Assembly (NCBI RefSeq): GCF_003293845.1
Contig: NZ_QLST01000008.1
Location: 1-64,000 of the forward strand
Source of the DNA: Flavobacterium tibetense
GTDB taxonomy: Bacteria; Bacteroidota; Bacteroidia; Flavobacteriales; Flavobacteriaceae
DNA: 64,000 bases
Reading direction: 5' to 3'
Shown here: in pieces, positions 29,343 to 52,214 of the stretch
Position numbering within the stretch: the stretch's first letter is position 1
Layout of the letters: each line of letters opens with the position of its first letter
Notes under the pieces: generated by a model
What the model was told of the DNA's origin: nothing
The model's input: only the letters and a program-made list of their open reading frames with translations
The model's database searches: none
Translations under genes and position numbers: made by a program

Positions 29343-29345
29343 TAG

Positions 29346-29425
29346 TTGTCAATTCGAGCGAATGCCTGTTCCGAATTATCGGAATTGAGAACTTATGAAC
29401 ATCTCAACTCCGCTCGATGTGACAA
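29346..29425. repeat. Palindromic dispersed repeat between trpD and trpC
   Basis: The ends TTGTCAATTCGAGCG (29346-29360) and CGCTCGATGTGACAA (29411-29425) are inverted repeats with two mismatches. Inner inverted repeats (TTCCGA/TCGGAA, TTGAGA/TCTCAA) would extend a long hairpin. The right end ACTCCGCTCGATGTGAC resembles the segment within purL at 49393-49422. The frame is open through it into trpC, which explains a spurious N-terminal extension. Confidence 0.8.
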
Positions 29426-29438
29426 AAAAATAATAGCT

Positions 29439-48506: not shown

Positions 48507-51500
48507 ATGATTCATTTCTTCGGAAACCAATCCAACACGGTTTTTGCGGTACAAACGCAAAACGAGATTTCATCAGAAGACAGCAACAAATTAAATTGGC
48601 TTTTTGGCAACGCACATAAAATAGAAAAATCCGTATTGTCGGATTTTTTTGTTGGACCTCGTGCCGCAATGGTTACGCCTTGGAGTACAAATGCCGTTGA
48701 AATTACTCAGAATATGGGAATTTCAGGCATTATCAGAATTGAAGAATTCCAAAAAGTAACTGCTGATTATACTGATTTCGATCCAATGCTTTCACAAAAG
48801 TATTCGGAATTAAATCAAGAAATTTATACGATAAATATCCAACCAGAACCAATAATAGATATCGAGGATATTGATGTATATAACAAATCAGAAGGTTTAG
48901 CATTAAGTCCAGAAGAAGTGGATTATTTGAATAACCTTTCAACGAAATTAGGAAGAAAGTTAACCGATTCTGAAATTTTTGCTTTCTCACAAGCGAATTC
49001 TGAACACTGCCGTCACAAAATTTTCAATGGAACCTTTGTGATTGATGGCGAAGAAAAACCAACTTCTCTATTCAAATTAATCAAGAAAACATCAGAAACC
49101 AATCCAAACGATATTGTTTCGGCATATAAAGATAACGTAGCTTTTGTAAAAGGTCCTAAAGTAACCCAATTTGCTCCAAAAAGCGCTGACAAACCTGATT
49201 TTTACCAAGAAAAGGAATTCGAATCAGTACTTTCTTTAAAAGCAGAAACACATAACTTCCCTACAACGGTTGAACCATTCAACGGAGCTGCAACAGGTTC
49301 AGGTGGAGAAATTCGAGACCGTTTAGCAGGAGGACAAGGTTCGTTGCCGCTAGCAGGAACTGCAGTTTACATGACTTCTTATTCTCGTTTAGCACCTTTC
49401 GACTCCGCTCAAGATGACAAACGTCCATGGGAAAACGGAATGGCAGAAAGACCTTGGTTGTACCAAACTCCTATGGATATTTTAATTAAGGCTTCGAACG
49501 GAGCTTCTGATTTTGGAAATAAATTTGGACAGCCTTTAATCACAGGTTCTATTTTAACGTTCGAGCATGAAGAAAATACTTCGACAGGCTCAGCACAGGC
49601 TAGAAAATTAGGTTACGATAAGGTAATCATGCAAGCGGGTGGAATTGGTTACGGAAAATTAGATCAAGCGATTAAAAAGAAACCACAAGAAGGAGATAAA
49701 ATCGTTATTTTAGGTGGCGAAAATTATAGAATTGGAATGGGCGGAGCTGCGGTTTCTTCAGCAGATACTGGAGCTTTTGGTTCAGGAATTGAATTAAATG
49801 CCATCCAACGTTCGAATCCAGAAATGCAAAAACGTGCTGCAAATGCTATTCGTGGTTTGGTAGAAAGTGATAACAATCCAATCGTATCGATTCACGATCA
49901 TGGCGCTGGGGGACATTTGAATTGTCTTTCTGAATTAGTAGAAGAAACTGGAGGATTAATCGATTTAGATAAATTACCTGTTGGCGATCCAACACTTTCG
50001 GCAAAAGAAATTATCGGAAACGAATCACAAGAACGAATGGGATTGGTTATTGGTGAAAAAGACATCGAAACCTTACAAAGAATTGCTGACAGAGAACGTT
50101 CACCAATGTATCAAGTAGGTGATGTTACCAATGATCATAGATTTACATTCGAATCCAAATCGACAGGTGAAAAACCAATGGATTATGCTTTGGAAGATTT
50201 CTTCGGAAGTTCACCAAAAACAGTAATGACAGATAAAACAATTGCTACTAATTATAGCGATTTAGCATATTCAACAGAAGAAATTCCAACGTATTTACAT
50301 CATGTTTTACAATTAGAAGCTGTTGCTTGTAAAGATTGGTTAACCAATAAAGTGGATCGTTGTGTTGGCGGACGAGTTGCCAAACAACAATGCGTAGGTC
50401 CATTACAGTTGCCTTTAAATAATGTTGGTGTAATGGCATTGGATTTCAAAGGAAAAGAAGGAATTGCAACTTCTATTGGGCACTCACCTATTGCGGCTTT
50501 GGTAAATCCAGTTTCTGGTTCACGCACAGCTATTGGTGAAGCGTTATCCAATTTAGTGTGGGCACCATTGAAAGATGGTTTAGCTTCGGTTTCATTATCT
50601 GCCAACTGGATGTGGGCTTGTAAAAATGAAGGCGAAGACGCTCGTTTATATGAAGCAGTTAAAGGATGTTCAGATTTTGCTATTGAATTGGGAATCAATA
50701 TTCCAACAGGAAAAGATTCGCTTTCGATGAAACAAAAATATCCAAATGATGAAGTAATTGCACCTGGAACGGTTATTATTTCAGCTGCTGGAAATTGTTC
50801 CAATATTACCAAAGTGGTTGAGCCTGTTTTACAGCGAAATGGCGGCAATATTTACTATTTGAATTTATCGCAAGATAGTTTCAAATTAGGCGGAAGTTCA
50901 TTGGGTCAGGTTTTGAATAAAATTGGGAATGATGTTCCAACGATTCAAAATTCAGAATTCTTCAAAAAAGCATTCAATGTTTTACAAGATTTAATTAAAG
51001 ACAGAAAAATTAAAGCGGGACACGATATTGGAAGTGGTGGTTTAATCACAACTTTATTGGAAATGTGTTTTGCTGATACCAAATTAGGCGCTTTTATTGA
51101 CTTAACTTCTTTCGGAGAGAAAGACACCGTTAAAGCCTTATTCAACGAAAATATTGCAGTAGTTTTCCAAGCGGATGAAGCTGTAGAGAAAGAATTTGCT
51201 GCACAAAACGTCGAAATTTTCAAAATTGGTTCCGTAGTTGAAGGAGATATTTTCACTGTAATTAATCATGAAGATAGTTTCACTTTTAATCCAGCTACGT
51301 TAAGAGATACTTGGTTTGAAACTTCGTTCTTATTGGATTCCAAACAATCTAAAAACGGAATGGCTCAAGAACGTTTTGATAATTACAAAAATCAACCTTT
51401 ACAATTCACTTTCCCATCGCATTTTACTGGTAAATTACCTGTGATTGATGCTTCAAAACCAAAACCAAAAGCAGCTATCATTCGTGAAAAAGGAAGTAAT

Positions 51501-52214
51501 TCGGAACGTGAAATGGCAAATGCTATGTTTTTGGCAGGATTTGACGTAAAAGATGTACACATGACCGATTTAATTTCGGGAAGAGAAACATTGGAAGACA
51601 TTCAATTCATTGGAGCTGTTGGAGGATTTTCGAATTCAGATGTTCTAGGTTCGGCTAAAGGTTGGGCTGGAGCGTTTTTATACAACGAAAAAGCGAATAC
51701 CGCTTTAAAAAACTTCTTCAAACGCGAAGACACACTTTCTGTTGGGATTTGTAATGGTTGTCAATTGTTAATGGAATTGGAATTAATCAATCCAGAACAT
51801 GATGTTCATGGAAAAATGCATCACAATACTTCGAACAAACACGAAAGCGGCTTTACTTCGGTAACGGTTCAGAAGAATAATTCGGTGATGTTATCTACAT
51901 TGGAAGGAACAACTTTAGGCGTTTGGATTTCGCATGGAGAAGGAAAATTCAAGTTACCTTATTCAGAAGAGAAATATAATATTGTAGCCAAATATGCTTA
52001 CGAAAGTTATCCAGCCAATCCAAATGGTTCTGATTTTAACACCGCTATGATGTGTGATACAACTGGAAGACATTTGGTAATGATGCCACACATTGAGCGT
52101 TCTACTTTTCCTTGGAACTGGGCACATTATCCAGAAAGAGGACAAAAAGACGAAGTTTCGCCATGGCTAGAAGCTTTTGTGAATGCTAGAAAATGGATTG
52201 AAAATAAAAAATAA
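48507..52214 (+). CDS. purL: Phosphoribosylformylglycinamidine synthase, single-chain (PurL)
   Basis: 1235 residues, the large single-polypeptide form with N-terminal PurS-like domain, two AIRS-type repeats and a C-terminal glutamine amidotransferase ([16 protein letters not shown] nucleophile Cys; WISHGEGKF; His/Glu in the ...HIERSTFP tail). ATP/FGAR site motifs [25 protein letters not shown] and [12 protein letters not shown] are intact. Two stretches, residues ~296-305 ([10 protein letters not shown]) and ~357-365 (NTSTGSAQA), look like in-frame repeat insertions in otherwise conserved loops, absent from PurL sequences I recall. They do not break the frame. It makes FGAM in purine synthesis. 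Confidence 0.95.
49393..49422. repeat. Dispersed repeat fragment inserted in purL (A)
   Basis: CACCTTTCGACTCCGCTCAA followed by GATGACAAAC, encoding PFDSAQDDK. It shares ACTCCGCTC and TGAC at the same spacing with the right end of the palindromic repeat at 29346-29425. It is in frame and contains no stop. Confidence 0.7.
49578..49600. repeat. Dispersed repeat fragment inserted in purL (B)
   Basis: ACTTCGACAGGCTCAGCACA(GGC), encoding TSTGSAQA. This is the wording of a repeat motif I recall from Bacteroidota intergenic DNA. It is in frame, between EHEEN and RKLGYDK. Confidence 0.65.

Follow-up and report, generated by a model that had tools for sequence, protein, structure and literature searches.

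Known intragenic and REP-like repeats

Palindromic repeats that lie in-frame within conserved protein genes, as well as between genes, have been described in Rickettsia, where RPE-4 and RPE-6 are examples (PMC3733652, PMC2229807). Palindromic elements of Wolbachia are cited beside them in the relevant passage of PMC2229807. A superfamily of REPs tagged with CGTC or TGTC has also been described (Di Nocera 2013, PMC3733652); in the sections of that paper on these repeats, CGTC repeats are reported in Bacteroidetes, no transposase is given for them, and intragenic REPs are recorded, including those of Rickettsia. The hairpin is given there as a stem of 8-9 bp with A/T first pairs, a loop of 4-5 nt and a short tail, mostly CCA. 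The passages on tagged REPs make no mention of PurL. Bacteroidetes also possess TnpA-REP genes (IS200-like, subclass 2.6) which, in the account of PMC6006769, are flanked by unusual repeats. PMC3686654 holds no match for Bacteroidetes or intragenic terms. Among the matches listed in literature searches on palindromic elements or REPs in Bacteroidetes or Flavobacterium, there was no paper on repeats inside Flavobacterium proteins; the nucleotide words of the repeat treated here gave no match, and its peptide words gave one unrelated plant paper.

The DNA considered here is a 64,000-nt stretch from Flavobacterium tibetense (the window), in which two short segments of purL had been proposed, in an initial annotation, to be in-frame palindromic repeats like those of Rickettsia. 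The likeness appears to be one of kind: the repeat lies in-frame in conserved genes, here those of PurL and LeuS, and is absent from the genes of relatives. On that count GltX and MetH differ, an insertion in them not being borne out by length. Further differences from the Rickettsia elements are the Bacteroidota host, the units of about 25 nt that add 6-7 residues, and the same loops being hit in many lineages. With the CGTC/TGTC REPs, as they are characterized in the sections cited, the repeat shares the TGTC tag, a hairpin of variable stem, pairs that lie mostly with tags outside, intragenic copies and the lack of a tied transposase. It differs from them in its covarying stem of 3-4 pairs around a core of 11-12 nt, with no common tail. 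As in REP/RAYT systems, the same genomes hold Y1_Tnp genes flanked by repeats, but the repeats beside those genes are other sequences.

REP-like repeats inside genes are already known as a kind; the degree of recurrence in PurL was unexpected. The described range of protein-coding palindromic repeats, which took in Rickettsia, Wolbachia and some other bacteria, hereby extends to free-living Bacteroidota.

The purL gene and its two inserts

The product of purL matches FGAR-AT domains and solved PurL structures in domain and structure comparisons. It has 1235 residues, versus 1221-1222 in near relatives without the inserts, and the frame is kept through both segments without stops. The segments had been delimited exactly to the base (Table 1). 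Insert 1 is oriented tag-first on the minus strand; its 27 nt replace the 6 nt of two codons (GAAGAR in relatives), a net gain of 21 nt. The 24 nt of insert 2 replace the 3 nt of one codon (AAT in relatives), again for a net gain of 21 nt.

Table 1. Positions in the window of purL, its two inserts and the intergenic repeat pair
Feature	Position	Strand	Description
purL, phosphoribosylformylglycinamidine synthase	48507..52214	+	1235 aa, open frame
Insert 1, PFDSAQDDK, residues 297-305	49395..49421	+	one whole TGTC-tagged hairpin repeat
Insert 2, TSTGSAQA, residues 358-365	49578..49601	+	core of 13-nt form, then GCACAGGC
Intergenic pair, sister subfamily TCRACTNCGCTCG	29347..29424	.	tags outside

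The word TTCGACN{2,3}GCTCA occurs in the window only at 49398-49411 and 49580-49592, both in purL. A pattern derived from the intergenic palindrome, CTCCGCTCGANNTGACA, is found exactly at 29408-29424 and with one mismatch at 49403-49419, which agrees with the wording that insert 1 had been said to have in common with that palindrome. The suggestion that both segments carry the same repeat wording stood in part: the core word is in both, but insert 2 is a different sub-form, in which GCACAGGC takes the place of the TGACA end.

When PurL is aligned with human PFAS, a gap contains place 1 and further gaps adjoin place 2, consistent with the proposed position of both inserts in loops between conserved blocks. 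The loop location is drawn from this alignment, since the structure predicted for PurL residues 160-620 (28 similar rows) has a mean pLDDT of 32. Folded as lone units, the inserts do no better than shuffles (z +1.21 for insert 1, -0.26 for insert 2).

The repeat family

In the genome (2.74 Mb, 56 contigs) the first word has 33 copies and the sister word TCRACTNCGCTCG has 31, with 0 and 0 for the reversed controls; the wording of the purL segments is that of dispersed repeats, as had been claimed. Within the genus the first word is present in 105 of 121 genomes, with 0 to 161 copies in each and 2536 in total, against 0 to 5 per genome for the word read backwards. At least one copy occurs in 279 of 296 genomes of the phylum; many of these counts are no higher than the control, so that abundance is patchy across the 296.

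Covariation was examined in 92 copies. The first form contributed 62 of them, made up of 32 of this genome's 33 and 30 loci of five further genus genomes; the sister form contributed 30 of its 31, L221 being left out because the pattern fixed pair 1. Stem pair 1 is dictated by the search word itself and so uninformative. Pairs 2, 3 and 4 form in 87, 88 and 54 of the 92 copies, against shuffle means of 47.5, 26.7 and 24.7 and maxima of 62, 41 and 38. For pair 5 (A-T) the count, 36 of 92, does not exceed that of shuffles, and the same holds beyond pair 4 generally. TGTC stands before the stem in 74 of the 92 copies and CGTC in 2 more, while 16 first-form copies have neither; all 31 copies of the sister subfamily have the TGTC tag. 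The words are the core of a small REP-like hairpin repeat, with the core GAGC-NNN-GTCGA, the tag TGTCA and a covarying stem. No common tail was seen in the copies listed.

A single unit is thermodynamically weak; the intergenic pair at 29344-29427 folds far better than shuffles (z -5.97). Pairs were also counted in one genome, G057, among 100 of its 128 places listed: 24 neighbours lie less than 100 nt apart, 19 with tags outside, 4 with tags inside and 1 in tandem. At G000:C23:21630-22504 six copies follow one another in strictly alternating orientation, with start-to-start distances of 87, 45, 87, 441 and 201 nt, in what looks like a duplicated intergenic array.

Recurrence at the PurL loops

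PurL was compared over 110 loci, a set leaning to near relatives: the 30 best-matching from genus genomes (an even draw of 121 genomes, 119 with a match; the window's own is among the 30) and the best 80 of 590 from a named collection. With the window the alignment has 111 rows, 100 of them different. The PurL of the sister, L086, is 96.8% identical to that of the window and has neither insert. Both are likewise absent from L063, L035, L036, L037 and L067, and all six rows read AEERPWE and EENNRKIGYDK at the two places. L034, L066 and L068, which are also close, have no insert 1 but hold different inserts at place 2. Where FDSAQ- or STGSAQ-like residues occur in other rows, the DNA there is that of the repeat or a decayed form of it.

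Two PurL loops and a domain linker have been occupied separately and repeatedly across Flavobacterium and some other Bacteroidota, which makes PurL a site where REP-like repeats land recurrently. At place 1 other rows show repeat-derived peptides of the FDSAQ type. The repeat-derived peptides at place 2 are STGSAQ, FDKLSG and ASSASAS, with SSGVEN from the other strand. The linker, near consensus residue 967, holds LRQAQGD, LSGVEG and others, and one more insert lies near the PurL N-terminus. Several frames are in use in PurL: FDSAQ, FDKLSG, STGSAQ and LRQAQGD, with LSGVE or LSAVE from the other strand.

The changes were counted on a maximum-likelihood tree (insert columns left out, quick search; 22 of 97 inner branches below 80), in which gains and losses are not told apart. 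With a widened word there are at least 12 state changes at place 1 (16 carriers, 82 rows without), at least 15 at place 2 (16 and 77) and at least 7 at the linker (8 and 90). For this count 2, 7 and 2 rows with unascribed inserts were left out at place 1, place 2 and the linker; by hand, L089, L092 and L111 were also left out and the decayed L060, L061 and L140 taken as carriers. Exact words only give 7, 10 and 5 changes (9, 10 and 5 carriers; 9, 13 and 5 rows left out), and one mismatch gives 10, 11 and 8. The widened count at place 2 takes in the variant TTCGAGTGCCTCA, the ASSASAS form, which is a repeat but a much rarer one: in the search of the 121 genus genomes it has matches in 32, at most 11 in each (G067, home of L034), with a control of 0 and none in this genome. 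In the clade L055-L141, carriers and non-carriers alternate at place 1, where loss or exchange is likely.

Other palindromes occur in the same PurL loops: L131 has AACCCTGCCAGAG... there, and L098 an element with CTCCCCCGAAGGAGG. L085 and L094 have inserts of 25 and 16 residues at place 1, beginning EQEHADYQ, and that of L085 is partly palindromic (CCCCGATGAAAATCGGGG). Near consensus residue 535, L066 (F. sasangense) and L069 (a MAG) have an identical insert of 27 residues, TRNEKYFTDEYRNRVLDFQNLNNTEEK, which differs from the hairpin repeat in the window's PurL.

The frames are constrained by the repeat itself. When the 14-nt form is tagged, its TGA stops one frame on either strand; with the 13-nt form the frames stopped are the STGSAQ frame and one in reverse. 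The STGSAQ-frame copies in the window and in L042, L050, L052, L112, L132, L100, L029, L177 and L192 are without the TGACA end. Survival in an open frame requires this of them, and it is no independent test. The lack of tagged copies in closed frames is similarly in part built in, because a frame-breaking copy goes uncounted.

Repeats inside other genes

Of the 64 genome copies, 20 fall within open frames of 150 codons or more, in 16 genes, and, with several near relatives empty at both PurL places, the interpretation of the initial annotation is supported. The genes are rmlD, a nucleotide-sugar dehydrogenase, a polysaccharide deacetylase, pabB, a 424-aa frame (L029) with no NCBIfam match, purL (twice), gltX, a lycopene-cyclase-like gene, an epimerase (twice), leuS, hemW, a glycosyltransferase (one pair), a radical SAM gene (twice), metH, icmF and hisA. 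Four of these genes do not reach the curated NCBIfam cut-off: pabB, the lycopene cyclase, the epimerase and metH, which is partial. One radical SAM copy (L223) stands just 23 residues past the first Met and could lie ahead of the true start. Three genes have two separate copies; the average expected is 0.10 under a rough model (19 events, 2400 model genes).

LeuS is a second enzyme with recurrent insertion. It reads LVNSSGVENQ in this genome, and 22 of 24 rows have neither repeat there; in G013 (L234) a different TGTC-tagged palindrome, encoding CHAELDSASHN, occupies the same place. In GltX the repeat is present in this genome and in G006, and decayed in G012, with no net length gain versus near relatives. 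MetH with the repeat equals its nearest relative in length. Extra residues had been expected in both proteins and are not seen; the case for insertion in GltX and MetH is one of DNA likeness. Proteins of these bacteria that contain FDSAQDD, STGSAQA, LRQAQGD or LSGVE can be flagged as possibly repeat-derived at those residues.

Origin of the inserts

The two inserts are very probably copies of the genome-wide REP-like family whose entry into purL was recent, later than the split from the sister L086, and which are tolerated as passengers in loops. Insert 1 would be a complete copy; insert 2, also a single copy, would be trimmed or of the long form. Such repeats may land widely, with most hits in genes being lost. 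Survivors would be those that leave the reading frame intact, do not bring the repeat's own TGA into it and lie in tolerant loops, which might take about 6-9 extra residues; PurL would offer two such loops and a domain linker. The inserts themselves are best described as putative passive passenger peptides, with no new function. Repeats have gone into the same loops of an essential enzyme many times and in different frames, near relatives being empty, and this amounts to a natural replicate experiment. It makes testable how REPs move without a known transposase, what determines the survival of an insertion and whether new protein loops are seeded in this way.

A different origin, in which exchange of purL alleles or short tracts between species brought in the inserts instead of fresh insertion, seems fairly unlikely. 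The STGSAQA inserts are near-identical in the window, L052, L132, L042 and L112, and AGAAAATT(A/G)GG just downstream is common to the window, L052 and L132 and differs from the sister; AGAAAATTAGG, however, is also present in the non-carriers L080 and L107. Over 12 codons on each side of place 2 the rows nearest the window are L118, L066, L043 and L136 rather than the sister, but at 30 and 60 codons the sister L086 is nearest. At place 1, L063 and not the sister is nearest at 12, 30 and 60 codons, yet the four nearest rows are without insert 1 at every flank length tried, and carriers at one place differ in frame, orientation and sub-form. Ordinary variation in loop length, with the repeat likeness due to chance, is scarcely credible: loop lengths do vary anyway, in human PFAS too, and some rows (e.g., L051) have unascribed inserts, but the two word matches in the window compare with 0.02 expected from shuffles, and insert 1, beyond the search word, also shows the tag and a stem that is mostly paired. 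Retention for some use to PurL, such as stability or regulation, is very improbable. In the L061, L140 clade the peptide has stayed FDSAQDD-like though the DNA has drifted; against this, the sequence, frame and even presence of the inserts differ among near relatives. It is also doubtful that the PurL loops are preferred targets entered by a sequence-guided route, rather than merely tolerant ones. Single-strand hairpins might, for example, join at short homology during replication and swap out a few native bases. Guided entry, if true, would explain why the same codons are hit by different repeat families and why one or two codons were lost at each of the window's two entries.

Mobilisation of the repeat by the RAYT (Y1_Tnp) transposases of these genomes is improbable. 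Copy number does correlate with Y1_Tnp count over the 121 genus genomes (rho 0.43), weakly so as a partial correlation on genome size (0.22, p 0.015, kinship ignored), and both of this genome's own Y1_Tnp candidates are flanked by inverted or palindromic repeats. But a RAYT flanked by the hairpin repeat was found at 0 of 32 Y1_Tnp loci (the 2 of this genome and 30 others, drawn from 30 of 87 matching genomes), with flanks of up to 1.5 kb searched on each side, and the six loci inspected have other repeats in their flanks. Moreover, 9 of 34 genomes without Y1_Tnp have at least 10 copies, up to 65, and L032, the second candidate of this genome, is a weak one (23.1 bits for a cut-off of 23, with no Pfam match at E 1e-4).

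The repeats that do flank the two own genes are distinct. A 35-nt inverted repeat with GGCACGGAATGCAATTCCGCGC, its arms 97% complementary, stands on both sides of the Y1_Tnp gene at L031:1298-1991 (G000:C1). The weak candidate at L032:1260-1979 (G000:C45) lies between two identical 37-nt palindromes, AAACCTGACAGGTTTCAAAAACCTGTCAGGTTTAAAT (also as AAACCTGACAGGTTT...), and together with them is a REP/RAYT-like unit. The palindrome in the PurL of L131 looks related to AAACCTGACAGGTTTCAAAAACCTGTCAGGTTTAAAT.
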